From: an uncultured Clostridia bacterium | GTDB lineage: Bacteria; Bacillota_A; Clostridia; Christensenellales; Aristaeellaceae | Assembly: GCA_945871545.1 (NCBI GenBank) | Contig: CAMBWJ010000054.1 | Span: 1 to 9,054, forward strand | Length of the DNA: 9,054 bases | Reading direction: 5' to 3' | Shown: positions 2,615 through 8,999 of the stretch, one piece after another | Layout of the letters: each line of letters opens with the position of its first letter | How positions within the stretch are numbered: the stretch's first letter is position 1 | Translations under genes and position numbers: made by a program | Notes under the pieces: generated by a model | Told to the model about the DNA's origin: nothing | Seen by the model: the letters and a program-made list of their open reading frames with translations, nothing else | Database searches by the model: none

Positions 2615-2836
2615 ATGGCTCTGTATTTTCAGCGACTTCGGGACATGCGCGAGGATGCCGACATGAAGCAGAGCGCCGTCGCCCAGTACCTCGGAATTCA
2701 GCAGACCGTGTATTCGAGGTACGAGAGGGGCGCGCGCACCATCCCCCTGGAGCATCTCATCAAGCTGGCGGATCTCTATAACGTATCCCTGGATTTCCTC
2801 ACCGGCAGAACCCAGAACATGAAGGTGAACAAGTGA
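2615..2836 (+). CDS. XRE-family HTH transcriptional regulator (rightward), about 73 aa
   Basis: This is almost only a helix-turn-helix: LRDMREDADMKQSAVAQYLGIQQTVYSRYERGARTIPLEHLIKLADLYNVSLDFLTGR is the full HTH_3 pattern, with the YSRYERGAR recognition and turn segment and the usual DFLTGR end. Single-domain XRE proteins of this size commonly act as dimeric repressors. The start is uncertain. GTG at 2612 and ATG at 2615 are in frame, but AGGGGGTGAT (2607-2616), a 9-of-10 match to the ideal 16S-complementary sequence, overlaps both. It would place initiation at the CTG at 2621, giving a protein that starts LYFQRLR. The gene is divergent from another XRE gene. Its stop codon touches a terminator stem, so it forms a one-gene transcript. 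I see no convincing plus-strand promoter hexamers in the gap. Confidence 0.88.
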   Translation: MALYFQRLRDMREDADMKQSAVAQYLGIQQTVYSRYERGARTIPLEHLIKLADLYNVSLDFLTGRTQNMKVNK

Positions 2837-2858
2837 CCCGGCCATGTTGCCGGGTTTT
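2836..2858 (+). terminator. Rho-independent terminator at the end of the rightward XRE gene
   Basis: A 7-bp perfect stem (ACCCGGC 2836-2842, GCCGGGT 2849-2855) has a CATGTT loop and then TTT. The last base of the TGA stop codon is the first base of the stem. It isolates the regulator from the exporter genes downstream. Confidence 0.87.
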
Positions 2859-2914
2859 CTCATGCCATCGCACAGTTCATATCGAGATTTTGACGGGATA
2901 TTACACAAGCCCGC

Positions 2915-2943
2915 TTTACAACGCAGCCCGTTTTGGGTATCCT
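2915..2943 (+). promoter_or_regulatory. Predicted promoter for the ThrE-type exporter pair
   Basis: TTTACA (2915-2920, 5 of 6 match TTGACA), a 17-base spacer and TATCCT (2938-2943, 4 of 6 match TATAAT). The RNA would begin near 2950. That is very close to the ATG at 2956 and favours a slightly later start (GTG 2971 or ATG 2980) for the exporter gene. A TTGACG at 2890-2895 has no good partner. Confidence 0.45.
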
Positions 2944-2955
2944 TTTCAGGTGAAT

Positions 2956-3735
2956 ATGGAAGGAAAACTGGTGAGGGAAATGAATCGAACGGAAGCGGAG
3001 GAGCGGCTGTACTGCGCCATGACCATCGGCGAGGAGCTGCTGGTCAGCGGCGCGGAGGTCAACCGGGTGGAGGACACCATCCGCCGCCTGTGCCGGGCGG
3101 CGGGCGCAGAGCGCGTGGACGTGTTCACCATCACCTCCAGCATCGTGACCACCATCTACGGACCGGACTTCGGCGCGTGCACCCAGACCCGGCGCGTGTC
3201 GGGCATGGCCTACGACCTGAACCGCCTGGACGCGCTGAACCGGCTCTCCCGGCGCATTTGTTCGGAGAATCTGTGCCCGGAGGACGTGCGCGCGGAGCTT
3301 GAACGCATCGACGCGGGGCCGCGCTACTCCTTCGGCATGCAGCTCTTCATCTATGCGCTGATCTCCGGCTCCTTTTCGATCTTCTTCGGCGGCAGCCTGC
3401 GCGACATGGTGGCCTCGGCGCTGATCGGCATCCTGCTGAAGCTGTTTGAATCGGCGCTGCGCCGCAAGGCCCATAACGCCCTCGTCACTGGGCTGCTCTG
3501 CTCCAGCGTGGGCGGTCTGCTGGCCCAGCTGAGCGTGCAGCTTGGCCTTGGCATGCACGCCGATCTGATCGGCATCGGCAACATCATGCTGCTGATCCCC
3601 GGCATCGCCTTCACCAACTCCCTGCGCGATTTGTTCTCCGGCGACACCATCACCGGACTCATCCGCTTTCTGGAGTCCATGCTGCTGGCCATCGTGATCG
3701 CGCTGGGCTTCACCCTCGCCGGTCTGCTGTTTTGA
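2956..3735 (+). CDS. ThrE-type threonine/serine exporter, N-terminal half protein (DUF1212-like)
   Basis: This is the larger half of a two-part exporter of the ThrE superfamily, predicted to export small amino acids such as threonine or serine across the cytoplasmic membrane. It has 259 aa as called. Residues 1-125 are soluble and carry the family-type segment MTIGEELLVSGAEVNRVEDTI and FTITSSIVTTIYG. Hydrophobic segments follow at about 129-146, 151-165, 175-196, 203-221 and 242-259. The conserved loop GNIMLLIPGIAFTNSLRDL followed by SGDTITG (residues 208-234) is typical of the family. The start is open: ATG 2956 has AGGTGA just upstream, but GTG 2971 has GGAAGG 7 bases ahead and fits the predicted RNA start better; ATG 2980 is also possible. 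The second half follows 11 bases later. Substrate identity is family-based only. Confidence 0.9.
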   Translation: MEGKLVREMNRTEAEERLYCAMTIGEELLVSGAEVNRVEDTIRRLCRAAGAERVDVFTITSSIVTTIYGPDFGACTQTRRVSGMAYDLNRLDALNRLSRRICSENLCPEDVRAELERIDAGPRYSFGMQLFIYALISGSFSIFFGGSLRDMVASALIGILLKLFESALRRKAHNALVTGLLCSSVGGLLAQLSVQLGLGMHADLIGIGNIMLLIPGIAFTNSLRDLFSGDTITGLIRFLESMLLAIVIALGFTLAGLLF

Positions 3736-3746
3736 GGAGGTGCGCC

Positions 3747-4199
3747 ATGAATCCCATCCTTCAACTGATCGCGGCCTGGGCCGGCTCGCTGGGCTTCGCC
3801 ATGCTGTTCAACGTGCGCGGCAAAAAGCTGGCCTTCGCCTCGCTGGGCGGACTGCTGGCCTGGGCGGTCTATCTGCTGGTCGCGCGCTTCACATCAAACG
3901 ACTACCTCTGCGGCTTCTGCGCAAGCGTGGCGCTGACGCTCTACGCCGAGGTCATGGCGATCTGCCAGAAGTCGCCGGTGACGCTGTTTCTCGTCTCGGC
4001 GGCGATCCCGCTGATCCCCGGCGCGGCGCTCTACCGCGCCATGGACTGCGTGATGCACGGCGACTGGCCGGGGCTGTGGCAGCGGGGCAGCTACGCGCTG
4101 CTGTTCGCCGCCAGCATGTCCGCGGGCATCACCGTCACCACCATCCTGTTCCAATTGATTCGCGGCAGCCTGCACGCCCGCATCCATCCCCATGGCTGA
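3747..4199 (+). CDS. ThrE-type exporter, C-terminal half protein (DUF3815-like)
   Basis: A membrane protein of 150 aa with about five hydrophobic segments at residues 4-21, 28-46, 53-72, 78-98 and 115-138. The fourth carries IPLIPGAALYRAMDCVMHGD, the counterpart of the IPG loop in the partner protein, as expected for ThrE_2 (DUF3815) proteins. In fused ThrE exporters this half follows the N-terminal half in one chain; here it is a separate gene. The ATG at 3747 is chosen because GAGGAGG (3734-3740) lies 6 bases ahead; an in-frame TTG at 3732 has no such support. The gap from the partner's stop is 11 bases, so the two are almost surely co-translated from one mRNA and form one complex. Confidence 0.9.
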   Translation: MNPILQLIAAWAGSLGFAMLFNVRGKKLAFASLGGLLAWAVYLLVARFTSNDYLCGFCASVALTLYAEVMAICQKSPVTLFLVSAAIPLIPGAALYRAMDCVMHGDWPGLWQRGSYALLFAASMSAGITVTTILFQLIRGSLHARIHPHG

Positions 4200-5071: not shown

Positions 5072-5078
5072 TATGGAT

Positions 5079-6326
5079 ATGAAGCGGGCGCTGGTGCTCT
5101 CCGGCGGCGGATCGAGGGGCGCGTATGAGTGCGGCGCATGGCAGGCGCTGCGGGAGCTGAACGTTCGCCTGGACGGCGTGTACGGCACGTCCATCGGCGC
5201 GCTGAACGCTGCGCTGGTGGCCCAGGACGACTTCGAGGCCGCGCTGGATCTGTGGAACAACATCTCCATCCGGCAGATCGTGGCGGTGGACGAGGACGAG
5301 GACTTCTCCGTGGACACCATGCTCTCCCGCAAGCGGGACATCATCCCCTTCCTGCTGGAGAACGCCCACAACTTCAAGATGGACGTGTCGCCGCTGGTGC
5401 GGCTGATTGACGAGAAGCTGGACGAGGGCCGGGTGCGCACGTCCGGCATGCAGCTGGGCATGATGCTCACCCGCATGCCCCAGTTCAGCGGCCGCGCGGT
5501 GCGCCTGAACGAGATTCCACAGGGGCAGCTTGCCGACTATCTGCTGGCCTCGGCCTCCTGCTTCCCCATCTTCCCGATGAAGGAGATTGGCGGCGAGAAG
5601 TACATGGACGGCGGCTATGCCGACAACATGCCCATCGCCATGGCCATCGAGGACGGCGCGGAGGAGATCGTCGCGGTGGACATCCATCCCCAGCCGGTGC
5701 ACCCCGAGTACGGCTGTATGCCCTTCCTGAAGCAGATTCACCCGCTGCACGATCTGGGCGGCTTCATGGACTTCAACCCCCAGCTGCTGCGCCGCAGCCG
5801 CTTGATGGGCTACTATGACACCATGAAGGCCTACGGGCGCTTCGACGGAATCCGCTACACCTTCACCCGGGTCAATGAACTGAAGATTTCCGAGGCGGCG
5901 CGGCGCTACACCCGGGAGATCGCGCTCTTCGACGCGGGCTGCGACGCGCGCGACGGCGACGCAGTGCTCATCGGCGCGCTGGGCGCGGAGACCCCGCTGC
6001 GGGCGCTCAGCTGGAAGGACGCGCTGCTGCGGGGCCTGGAGCTCTGCGCCCAGGCGATGGGCTTCCGTGAGGACGCGATCTACGATATGGACGTGCTCAC
6101 CGGGCGCATCCTGAACTACGCCAGGAATCTGGACGGCGACGGCGCGCTGTGGGATCGCAGCATGAACGAGGCTGCCCGCGCAGGCGGGCGCGTGCTCACC
6201 GCGTGGATCTTCCTGTCCATGCTCCGGGAGAAGGACTTCCTCGCCCGCAACCGCCACAAACTGGCGGACTTCCCCATGGAGACCGCCGCGGCGCTGTATC
6301 TGAAGTGCATGGACGAGACGCTGTAG
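5079..6326 (+). CDS. Patatin-like phospholipase (acyl hydrolase)
   Basis: A 415-aa serine acyl hydrolase of the patatin family, which cleaves acyl chains from phospholipids or related lipids with a Ser-Asp dyad. Seen in order: the oxyanion loop SGGGSRGAYECG at residues 8-19; the nucleophile motif GTSIG with Ser38; and the YMDGGYADNMP motif with Asp177, preceded by SASCFPIFP. These fit bacterial RssA/YlbK-type patatins. No signal peptide is seen, so a cytoplasmic or membrane-surface place is likely. The C-terminal part, about 215 residues after the catalytic Asp, is longer than in the minimal domain, has no motif I know and looks mostly helical. The start is fixed by its ribosome site. It sits between the HAD phosphatase (30-base gap) and a dehydrogenase (19-base gap), in one operon. 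The true lipid substrate is unknown. Confidence 0.93.
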   Translation: MKRALVLSGGGSRGAYECGAWQALRELNVRLDGVYGTSIGALNAALVAQDDFEAALDLWNNISIRQIVAVDEDEDFSVDTMLSRKRDIIPFLLENAHNFKMDVSPLVRLIDEKLDEGRVRTSGMQLGMMLTRMPQFSGRAVRLNEIPQGQLADYLLASASCFPIFPMKEIGGEKYMDGGYADNMPIAMAIEDGAEEIVAVDIHPQPVHPEYGCMPFLKQIHPLHDLGGFMDFNPQLLRRSRLMGYYDTMKAYGRFDGIRYTFTRVNELKISEAARRYTREIALFDAGCDARDGDAVLIGALGAETPLRALSWKDALLRGLELCAQAMGFREDAIYDMDVLTGRILNYARNLDGDGALWDRSMNEAARAGGRVLTAWIFLSMLREKDFLARNRHKLADFPMETAAALYLKCMDETL

Positions 6327-7279: not shown

Positions 7280-7310
7280 CGCCCCGAGGGGAAATCCCTC
7301 GGGGCGTTTT
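7280..7310 (+). terminator. Strong Rho-independent terminator after the HAD-patatin-dehydrogenase operon
   Basis: A perfect 11-bp stem (CGCCCCGAGGG 7280-7290, CCCTCGGGGCG 7296-7306), a GAAAT loop, then TTTT. It lies 19 bases after the dehydrogenase stop and just beyond the end of the convergent Fe-S gene. Read on the minus strand the stem lacks a U-tract, so it is weaker for the opposite operon. Confidence 0.93.
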
Positions 7311-7312
7311 CG

Positions 7313-8212
7313 TCATCTGCCGGACTCTGCCAGCGAATTTTCCTTGATACGAATCCTTCCGAAGCGCAGCTCGATGGCTCCGGCGGGACAGACCTGTGCG
7401 CACTTGCCGCAGCGGATGCACTCGGCGCTGTTGATGTTCTTCAGCACCTGCACCTGCATGGGACATTCGCGCTCACACTTGCCGCAGGAGACGCAGCTTC
7501 CGCCGTCCAGCTCCATGCGGGTCAGGCTCACCCGGTTGAACAGCGCATAGAACGCGCCCAGCGGGCAGACGTACTTGCAGAAGGGCCGGTAGATCAGCAC
7601 CGACGCAAGGATCGTCAGCGCCAGCAGGCCCAGCTTCCACCAGAACAAAAAGCCCAGGCTGCCGCGCAGGCTCTCGTTGGTCAGCACCAGCGGGATGCCG
7701 CCCTCCAGCGTGCCCGCCGGACAGATCCACTTGCAGAAGTAGGGCGCGCCCAGTCCGAAGCCATCCACCAGAAAGGCGGGCAGAGCCAGCACGAAGATCG
7801 CCAGCACGCCGTACTTCAAAAAGCGCGCGGGGCGGTCGATCTTCCCCGGGACGCGCAGCTTCCTCCCCGGAAGCTTGTGCAGCAGCTGCTGAATCCAGCC
7901 GAAGGGGCACAGAAAGCCGCAGATCAGCCTGCCCAGCAGCACGCCGAACAGCAGCAGGACGCCGAATACATAATAGGAGAAGCTCAGCTTGTTGCCGCTG
8001 ACCACCGCCTGCATCGCGCCGATGGGGCATGCGCCCACCGCGCCCGGGCAGGAGTAGCAGTTCAGCCCCGGCACGCAGGCGGTCTTGAGCTCGCCAGAGT
8101 AGATGCGCCCGCTGAGGAAGCCGCGCAGGTGGGCGTTGGTGCCGAGGGTCGCGCCCAGCTGAATCCAGCCGCGGTAGCGGAACAGCCGCCCGCCCGATTT
8201 CTTCTTGCTCAT
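7313..8212 (-). CDS. NapH-like polytopic [4Fe-4S] membrane protein
   Basis: A 299-aa membrane electron-transfer protein related to NapH/YccM/CcoG (Fer4_5 plus ferredoxin modules). Hydrophobic segments lie at about 78-98, 132-152 and 188-208, with a weaker one at 15-35. Cysteine motifs in order are CVPGLNCYSCPGAVGACP (C46, C52, C55, C62), three CX3CP motifs (C98/C102, C160/C164, C212/C216), then two full CX2CX2CX3CP ferredoxin clusters (C240-C250, C265-C275). It probably passes electrons between the cytoplasmic side and a partner in or outside the membrane. The ATG at 8212 is chosen because it overlaps the upstream stop codon as ATGA; upstream in-frame codons give an Arg-rich, family-unlike sequence. 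It is the last gene of a coupled trio with a CXXC mini-protein and a redoxin. Its donor and acceptor are unknown. Confidence 0.92.
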   Translation of the reverse strand: MSKKKSGGRLFRYRGWIQLGATLGTNAHLRGFLSGRIYSGELKTACVPGLNCYSCPGAVGACPIGAMQAVVSGNKLSFSYYVFGVLLLFGVLLGRLICGFLCPFGWIQQLLHKLPGRKLRVPGKIDRPARFLKYGVLAIFVLALPAFLVDGFGLGAPYFCKWICPAGTLEGGIPLVLTNESLRGSLGFLFWWKLGLLALTILASVLIYRPFCKYVCPLGAFYALFNRVSLTRMELDGGSCVSCGKCERECPMQVQVLKNINSAECIRCGKCAQVCPAGAIELRFGRIRIKENSLAESGR

Positions 8213-8367
8213 GCGCCCACCCCGATGCACTCCAGGCAGATGCGCACGGCCTTGCGCAGCACGATCTCCGTCTCGCCCCGCAGCGCACCCAAGCAGATGC
8301 AGCCCACGGCGGCGGCAATGGCCAGAACGCGCAGCGCCCAGGTCAGCCGCGCCCGGCGCAGGCTCAT
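8209..8367 (-). CDS. CD1871A-like CXXC-motif membrane mini-protein (52 aa)
   Basis: A very small protein with three parts: a basic N-terminus (MSLRRAR), one hydrophobic helix at about residues 10-28, and a short tail ending RICLECIGVGA with a CXXC pair at Cys44 and Cys47. Cys23 and Cys25 lie within or near the helix end. By the positive-inside rule the tail and its CXXC would be outside the membrane. The C-terminal 'KAxxICLECIGxG' pattern matches what I know as the CD1871A family of clostridial CXXC mini-proteins, whose function is not established. Both ends overlap neighbours by 4 bases (ATGA): its ATG with the stop of the redoxin gene, and its stop with the ATG of the Fe-S gene. This indicates tight translational coupling and probably a fixed complex. 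It is easily missed because it is so short. Confidence 0.87.
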   Translation of the reverse strand: MSLRRARLTWALRVLAIAAAVGCICLGALRGETEIVLRKAVRICLECIGVGA

Positions 8368-8888
8368 GCTGCATCCTCCAGCATGGCCAGAACCTCCTGA
8401 ATCACGCCGTAGTAGGCGCCCGCAGCGTCCTCCAGATCCGGCACGCCCACGATGGGCTGGCCCACAGGATTGCCCTCGCTGTCCAGGAAGTAGGTGGTGG
8501 GGAAGGCGTACACCTGGTAGAGGAACTGGTCGTAGATCTCCTGGGTGCCCATCAGCGTCTGGAAGTTGGTCGCGCCGGTCTGCTGAAGGATGTTGTAGGC
8601 CAGCTCGGTCTCGGTGGTCGCGTCGTCGCAGATGGTGATCAGGTTCACGTTCTCCGGCAGCATGTCCTTGAGCTTCGCCAGCTCCGGCATCTCCTGCACG
8701 CAGTAGCCGCACCAGGTCGCCCAGATGTTCACCATGGTCAGGTCGTAGCCGGAGAAGATGCTCTCGTCCACCGGCTGGGCCTCCATATCGTAGGTGCTGA
8801 AGCTGGTGAGGCCGCTCGTCTCGGCACAGGCCGCAGATGCGGCGATCAGCATCGCCAGCGTAAGCAGCAGAATCATCGCTCTCTTCAT
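8364..8888 (-). CDS. Secreted TlpA/ResA-like thioredoxin-fold protein (WCGYC)
   Basis: A 174-aa extracytoplasmic redoxin. Residues 1-22 are a signal peptide (MKRAMILLLTLAMLIAASAACAET); cleavage by signal peptidase I after ACA, or lipid modification at Cys21, are both possible, since the SAAC site is a poor lipobox. The thioredoxin fold follows: VNIWATWCGYC with Cys60/Cys63, MPEL, a central LITICDDA strand and the cis-Pro loop VYAFPTTYFLDSEGNPVG (Pro130). TlpA/ResA proteins usually reduce disulfides in cytochrome c or other exported proteins; no cytochrome gene is in view. The start has GGAGG (8900-8896), 7 bases ahead. It is the first gene of a three-gene unit with a CXXC mini-protein and a multi-Fe-S membrane protein, which suggests it receives electrons from them, or gives electrons to them. 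Confidence 0.93.
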   Translation of the reverse strand: MKRAMILLLTLAMLIAASAACAETSGLTSFSTYDMEAQPVDESIFSGYDLTMVNIWATWCGYCVQEMPELAKLKDMLPENVNLITICDDATTETELAYNILQQTGATNFQTLMGTQEIYDQFLYQVYAFPTTYFLDSEGNPVGQPIVGVPDLEDAAGAYYGVIQEVLAMLEDAA

Positions 8889-8917
8889 TGTTTTTCCTCC
8901 TCTAATTTCTCTTACTG

Positions 8918-8964: not shown

Positions 8965-8999
8965 CGCCGCAGACGGTTTCGTCTGCGGCGTTTGTGTTT
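8965..8999. terminator. Perfect 11-bp hairpin terminator, likely bidirectional
   Basis: CGCCGCAGACG (8965-8975) and CGTCTGCGGCG (8980-8990) form a perfect stem around a GTTT loop. On the plus strand it is followed by TTTGTGTTT; on the minus strand it is followed by ATTTTAT. The gene that uses it is the minus-strand reading frame ending at 8998, since no plus-strand gene precedes it. Confidence 0.85.

Follow-up and report, generated by a model that had tools for sequence, protein, structure and literature searches.

A Three-Gene Set Shared by Many Anaerobic Clostridia Looks Like a New Kind of Transmembrane Electron Wire

INTRODUCTION

Exported redoxins of the TlpA, ResA, StoA and DsbE (CcmG) families are reductants with a common WCxxC redoxin fold, and they are supplied with cytoplasmic electrons by membrane proteins of the CcdA/DsbD/ScsB group (PF02683, DsbD_TM), in which a membrane CXXC pair carries the reducing power. 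Ferredoxin:thioredoxin reductase is a soluble enzyme in which an Fe-S cluster reduces a disulfide and, by way of it, supplies a protein of the thioredoxin fold. Membrane Fe-S proteins of the NapH/MauN type (TIGR02163) are partnered by a quinol-fed periplasmic reductase or by methylamine dehydrogenase. Less is at hand for the small proteins of the CD1871A family (NF040920), whose family model names no function. A literature search that took in few subscription papers found no account of this mini-protein family or of the gene trio described below, in agreement with the NCBIfam name and with the preliminary description of the locus, according to which the family has no established function. In the excerpts available of two papers that use similar names, CD1871 denotes an ABC transporter permease (PMC11326576) and CD18710 is given as a conjugative transposon (PMC12772354), and the CD1871A family is not concerned in either excerpt.

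The locus studied here comprises genes for a redoxin, a CD1871A mini-protein and an Fe-S membrane protein. Like CcdA/DsbD/ScsB, the trio would feed cytoplasmic electrons to exported TlpA/ResA-type redoxins, but it has no DsbD_TM domain, and Fe-S clusters together with a single-helix CXXC protein would take the place of the CcdA membrane CXXC pair. Its redoxin has the exported WCxxC fold of ResA, StoA, TlpA and DsbE, yet differs from them in having an Fe-S/mini-protein pair as partner instead of CcdA and, at 14 loci, a putative selenocysteine. The Fe-S protein and Escherichia coli NapH have in common the two inner CxxxC(P) motifs (C98/C102 and C212/C216) and a C-terminal pair of [4Fe-4S] clusters, whereas six further cysteines of the former (C46, C52, C55, C62, C160 and C164) are missing from E. 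coli NapH. With ferredoxin:thioredoxin reductase we see a similar principle by analogy only and claim neither sequence relation nor membership.

RESULTS

The locus and its three genes

The window, by which we mean the whole analyzed stretch of 9,054 nucleotides from an uncultured Clostridia bacterium, contains the features listed in Table 1. The preliminary description held up on three points of gene content: three minus-strand genes (7313-8888) are joined by two ATGA overlaps; the Fe-S protein has 18 cysteines, of which eight belong to two ferredoxin clusters and the others to four further motifs (C46/C52/C55/C62, C98/C102, C160/C164 and C212/C216); and no CcdA/DsbD gene is present, a Pfam scan of 10 window proteins having given no DsbD_TM match, neither for the redoxin, the mini-protein and the Fe-S protein nor for the others.

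Table 1. Features of the trio locus, with positions in the window
Feature	Position	Strand	Description or source
Redoxin gene	8364-8888	-	174 aa, TlpA/ResA-type, N-terminal signal/anchor, WCGYC
Mini-protein gene	8209-8367	-	52 aa, CD1871A family, one TM segment, C-terminal ICLECIGVGA
Fe-S protein gene	7313-8212	-	299 aa, NapH-like membrane protein, 18 Cys
ATGA overlap, redoxin/mini-protein	8364-8367	-	Sequence check
ATGA overlap, mini-protein/Fe-S protein	8209-8212	-	Sequence check
Shine-Dalgarno-like GAGGAGG, 5' of redoxin gene	8896-8902	-	Read from sequence
Terminator-like hairpin, 5' of trio	8965-8990	-	Terminator search
Inverted repeat CGCCCCGAGGG/CCCTCGGGGCG, between trio and convergent panE-like gene	7280-7306	.	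Read from sequence

The hairpin 5' of the trio is probably the terminator of the preceding transcript and likely marks the upstream edge of the operon; the search that gave it returned 3 such sites vs 0.8 expected and found no sigma-70-like promoter. The inverted repeat beyond the other end, absent from the output of that search, is probably a terminator common to the trio and the convergent panE-like gene. Elsewhere on the plus strand of the window lie a class B sortase-like protein (1406-2125; TIGR03064, 139 bits, cut-off 153.75) directly 3' of a repeat-bearing reading frame (19-1341), a split ThrE threonine/serine exporter pair (2833-4199; PF06738 and PF12821) and a patatin-like phospholipase of 417 aa (5073-6326; PF01734).

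The window redoxin exceeds the Pfam cut-offs for AhpC-TSA (34.4 bits, cut-off 26), Redoxin and Thioredoxin, and its hydrophobic peak covers residues 4-22. Having an AhpC-TSA/Redoxin domain, a WCxxC motif and a hydrophobic export signal, it falls among the TlpA-like exported redoxins in the broad sense. TlpA, ResA, StoA and DsbE are its best NCBIfam models at 37-44 bits, each below the curated cut-off (ResA 42.6 bits, cut-off 170; StoA 39.7 bits, cut-off 210). The mini-protein is a member of NF040920 (53 bits, curated cut-off 32) with a single hydrophobic segment, and its CLEC motif begins 9 residues from the C-terminus. The Fe-S protein matches the Pfam Fer4_5 and Fer4 families, stays below the cut-off of the NapH model TIGR02163 (73.1 bits, cut-off 213) and aligns with E. 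coli NapH at 23% identity. Neither a quinol-fed periplasmic reductase nor methylamine dehydrogenase was found in the 10 scanned window proteins or in the partly identified neighbor lists of related loci.

Gene association across genomes

A search of a species-level genome collection with the Fe-S protein gave 266 relatives, of which the best 80 were kept. A mini-protein gene adjoins the Fe-S gene in 79 of these 80 loci, and a redoxin match lies in the fetched stretch in 62. In the sole miss (L018), 102 bases separate the start of the Fe-S gene from the end of the contig. Because this set had been selected by the Fe-S protein, a second survey was begun from the mini-protein family alone, in an unbiased class sample of 293 Clostridia genomes. 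The family was matched in 47 genomes, 45 of them above the cut-off, at 48 places above the cut-off. A same-strand Fe-S gene was present at all 48 places and a same-strand redoxin within about 3 kb at 44. The three genes are thus near-constant neighbors, and the rarity of this neighborhood that would have refuted the preliminary description is clearly not what other genomes show. Two further places fell below the cut-off: one (L133) has no Fe-S gene and has a mini-protein in which the CXXC is missing (read from L173, the same place), and at the other (L134) the contig breaks off at the expected position of the Fe-S gene. A phylum sample gave the mini-protein in 60 of 398 genomes (45 above the cut-off; 61 places). 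Of these places 40 were fetched, 20 of the 22 weakest among them; a same-strand Fe-S gene is present at all 40 and a redoxin at 28. The constant partnership of the CD1871A mini-protein with the Fe-S protein is a result of the present analysis.

Taken over all surveys, Fe-S and mini-protein genes stand close together on the same strand in 197 fetched loci, a number that includes a few likely duplicates (e.g. L003 and L111, seemingly one place). The two are mostly direct neighbors, with a gap of 0.2 to 2.3 kb in four loci (L128, L191, L201 and L220). The order redoxin-mini-FeS occurs 121 times, mini-FeS-redoxin 41 times and FeS-mini-redoxin once, and 34 loci have no close redoxin. Some genomes, such as G343 and G370, possess two whole trios. 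The trio is a real unit, and as a module it is well supported.

Other neighbors vary. ABC transporters and two-component regulators are minority neighbors, no one cluster of them exceeding 23 of 80 or 14 of 115 loci, respectively, and among the partly identified neighbors no third enzyme accompanies the trio constantly. Nor does a replacement partner recur beyond a few of the redoxin-less loci, judged from several neighbor lists, one of which covers 25 of 87 families; MsrA, Fe-ADH, RACo, a DEAD helicase, glycosidases and others are each found in one to four of them. The idea that MsrAB is the constant substrate is not supported. A redoxin of the same profile is encoded somewhere in 21 of the 22 genomes in which none was seen adjacent to the pair, a raw count in which the 22 include a contig-end case (L074); in one of these genomes (G075) it is a redoxin beside CcdA/DsbD (L262).

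Among stand-alone redoxin frames, 94 of 160 have a hydrophobic stretch N-terminal to the domain and 63 of 160 a lipobox-like motif; the remaining ones may have export signals that our simple threshold test overlooked. Two unusual redoxins were noted in passing: in one trio genome, a lipoprotein-like protein that combines a rhodanese with a redoxin domain (L269), and a lipoprotein-like redoxin of 362 aa with a long N-terminal region free of Pfam matches (L270), which belongs to the genome with a TGA-containing mini-protein. At a further locus (L172), the mini-protein is split over two frames, with an intact adjoining Fe-S gene and no redoxin match nearby, and this is perhaps a decaying trio.

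Gene fusions

Fe-S protein and redoxin are encoded in one frame at two loci, L122 and L124. A search with L122 gave 6674 relatives, and of the best 120 all but one, 119 in total, have both domains. The linker that joins the ferredoxin end to the redoxin contains exactly one hydrophobic segment in 96 of these 119 fusions and none by our threshold in 23. A fusion of the second kind was seen once: in L076 the Fe-S protein carries the mini-protein at its C-terminus, and the locus showed no mini-protein gene of its own besides. Given cytoplasmic ferredoxin clusters, fusions of either kind would place the redoxin and the CXXC outside. The structure model of L076 has a mean pLDDT of 81.4, with good confidence over most of the Fe-S protein and values near 50 for the mini-protein.

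Cysteine conservation and predicted topology

Over 198 aligned rows, eight cysteines of the Fe-S protein (C52, C55, C62, C98, C102, C164, C212 and C216) reach a weighted frequency of 1.000, as do C44 and C47 of the mini-protein when U is counted as C. C46 of the Fe-S protein stands at 0.918 and its other cysteines at 0.976 or more. A divergent branch (L185-L204) has mini-proteins ending, for example, in CLSCIGIQ or CTSCIGLR, and in its Fe-S proteins the first outer cysteine is shifted.

Three TM segments of the Fe-S protein are clear, and a first one is weak. This weak segment, which precedes C46, has a mean hydrophobicity of 0.9 (range 0.1 to 2.1) and aligns with the N-terminal hydrophobic segment of E. 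coli NapH, the first TM helix of NapH. Over 73 rows, K+R number 7.3 in the loop between TM-A and TM-B vs 2.1 in the loop between TM-B and TM-C, and the ferredoxin end is therefore predicted inside and C160/C164 outside. We infer from the sequences that the protein has one inner and one outer cluster site.

For the mini-protein, the preliminary description had the CXXC facing outward. The side is uncertain because more K/R follow the helix than precede it (3.8 vs 2.4; mean, n=62) and because a second helix is fairly hydrophobic. The outward position is favored by the L076 fusion and by the fusions of Fe-S protein and redoxin, while charge counts leave it undecided and the model of the mini-protein is of low confidence. 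Column coupling between mini-protein and Fe-S protein was also considered as evidence of contact. Its top pairs include W191 and A156 of the Fe-S protein with L29 of the mini-protein, which would fit a contact at the outer helix end; we do not use it because the remaining high-ranking pairs seem for the most part to reflect a single divergent subgroup.

Putative selenocysteine at the redox sites

At 14 loci, the first cysteine codon of the redoxin CXXC is replaced by TGA, which read as U gives U-x-x-C; 11 of these are regular matches (L098, L104, L105, L114, L115, L210, L212, L213, L215, L217 and L221) and three are weak ones (L211, L216 and L219). SelB scores above the cut-off in 11 of 11 TGA genomes vs 5 of 15 other hand-picked trio genomes (p=0.0007), the former being 10 genomes with a TGA redoxin, which hold the 11 loci with regular matches, and one with a TGA mini-protein. 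The stems 3' of the redoxin TGA are longer than those 3' of Cys codons (median 6 vs 4 pairs; n=11 and 154; p=5e-6) and the folding energies differ as well (p=6e-5), in both cases among relatives that are not independent. The hairpin that follows the TGA in the trio redoxins tested often has a GTT loop. With SelB present and hairpins following the TGA codons, the trio redoxins of these relatives, as distinct from that of the window, look like selenoproteins and likely are.

One mini-protein, L117, has TGA at the corresponding position (ULECIGIG), in a genome with SelB (385 bits) and tRNA-Sec (65 bits). The hairpin is only mildly unusual here, an equally long stem occurring in 8 of 150 cases including L117 itself, and the case for selenocysteine therefore rests mainly on codon position and machinery. 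We regard L117 as a putative selenoprotein, seen in one genome, with a broken gene as the alternative; the order, family and phylum samples yielded no second mini-protein with TGA.

Relation to CcdA/DsbD

In the class sample, PF02683 is present in 150 of the 293 Clostridia genomes and missing from 143. Genomes with a mini-protein above the cut-off have it in 12 of 45 cases vs 138 of 248 for the others (p=0.0003); with the two sub-cut-off hits included the figures are 14 of 47 vs 136 of 246 (p=0.0014), both tests ignoring phylogeny and the incompleteness of metagenome-assembled genomes. Among the 66 trio genomes (66 of the 80 trio loci), PF02683 is missing from 56 and found in 10. The suggestion that the trio replaces CcdA/DsbD agrees with its absence from those 56 and from 33 of the 45 mini-protein genomes, but not with a strict alternation, for the 10 genomes that have both, and hence show that trio and CcdA/DsbD are not exclusive, include that of L001 (33.4 bits, cut-off 27.1), the closest relative of the window with an Fe-S protein 90% identical. 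CcdA/DsbD is under-represented in mini-protein genomes, not excluded from them.

Forty CcdA/DsbD loci were fetched for comparison, some being the highest-ranking hits and others coming from genomes in which a mini-protein is present as well. A redoxin match, in some cases weak, lies within about 2 kb in 26 of them; a mini-protein is beside CcdA/DsbD in 0 of 40, and an Fe-S match, a weak one, in a single locus. Redoxins travel with the trio or with CcdA/DsbD. In a rapidly computed redoxin tree (14 CcdA rows and a selection of 66 trio rows from a larger set; 3 changes), the two groups form mostly separate lineages, and recent partner swapping, which we had considered, is therefore not supported.

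DISCUSSION

Our preferred reading, to which we assign a probability of roughly 0.6, is that the three genes form one transmembrane thiol-reducing module that does the job of CcdA/DsbD in these anaerobes. Low-potential electrons from the cytoplasm would enter the two ferredoxin-type [4Fe-4S] clusters of the NapH-like protein, pass to a cluster site in the inner part of the membrane (C98, C102, C212 and C216) and from there to an extracytoplasmic cysteine site (C46, C52, C55, C62, C160 and C164). The CXXC of the mini-protein, held beside the outer site by its one helix, would be reduced there and would in turn reduce the exported redoxin at its WCxxC (or UxxC), and the redoxin would pass the electrons on to exported thiols. 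What the genomes show directly is the gene association, the fusions, the conserved cysteines, a putative selenocysteine at both CXXC sites and the negative association with CcdA/DsbD, from which we infer the clusters, the electron route, its direction and the final substrate. A bolder version of this reading is a transmembrane disulfide reductase of new mechanism, in which a [4Fe-4S] chain with an extracytoplasmic cluster reduces the CXXC/UXXC of a 50-residue one-helix protein and through it the redoxin, replacing CcdA/DsbD in many ferredoxin-rich anaerobes and tying the repair of exported thiols to ferredoxin; here we consider the odds even.

The role of the mini-protein is where another reading comes closest. 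It may be a structural subunit whose CXXC helps to bind an extracytoplasmic cluster while the Fe-S protein reduces the redoxin directly, an arrangement that would suit the invariance of both cysteines, which could bind a cluster jointly with the six outer cysteines of the Fe-S protein, and the retention of the mini-protein beside the Fe-S gene in the 34 of 197 loci where no redoxin is near. The putative U-x-x-C mini-protein, in a genome with SelB and tRNA-Sec, suggests redox catalysis instead, though it is one case, and we hold the structural role to be possible but doubtful. The current might also run the other way, exported thiols being oxidized outside and ferredoxin or another acceptor reduced inside, as an oxidation or electron-sink path. 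Anaerobes need electron sinks, and neither topology nor gene content fixes the direction; the best models for the redoxin, however, are families of reductants, Sec at the attacking position, as in the TGA redoxins, is usual in reductases, and the negative association is with CcdA/DsbD, a reducing system, so that we regard reverse flow as unlikely.

We think it slightly more unlikely still that redoxin and mini-protein serve to assemble or protect the Fe-S protein, or a metal site or another enzyme served by it, and accept no electrons from it. Precedents exist, since the Fer4_5 proteins CcoG and MauN serve maturation tasks and thioredoxin-like proteins help to assemble metal sites, but the near-universal fusion of redoxin and Fe-S protein among the best L122 homologs and the lack of a constant third enzyme among the partly identified neighbors speak against such a role. 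That unrelated redox genes share an ordinary operon by chance or through selfish clustering is highly improbable, being already contradicted by the counts of the unbiased sample (48 of 48 and 44 of 48), by the differing gene orders, by fusions of two kinds and by whole trios occurring twice per genome.

What the transmembrane thiol-reducing module would mean is plainest for the 143 of 293 sampled Clostridia that have no CcdA/DsbD, for which it offers a concrete, testable answer to how exported redoxins are recharged. It points to a function for a mini-protein family that has had no name, and it adds likely selenoproteins at its redox sites. If the reading is true, exported thiol repair in many ferredoxin-rich anaerobes would be tied to ferredoxin rather than to cytoplasmic thioredoxin. 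The fixed three-gene set of many anaerobic Clostridia looks like a new kind of transmembrane electron wire, and it suggests that Fe-S clusters, not membrane thiols, can carry reducing power to proteins on the outside.
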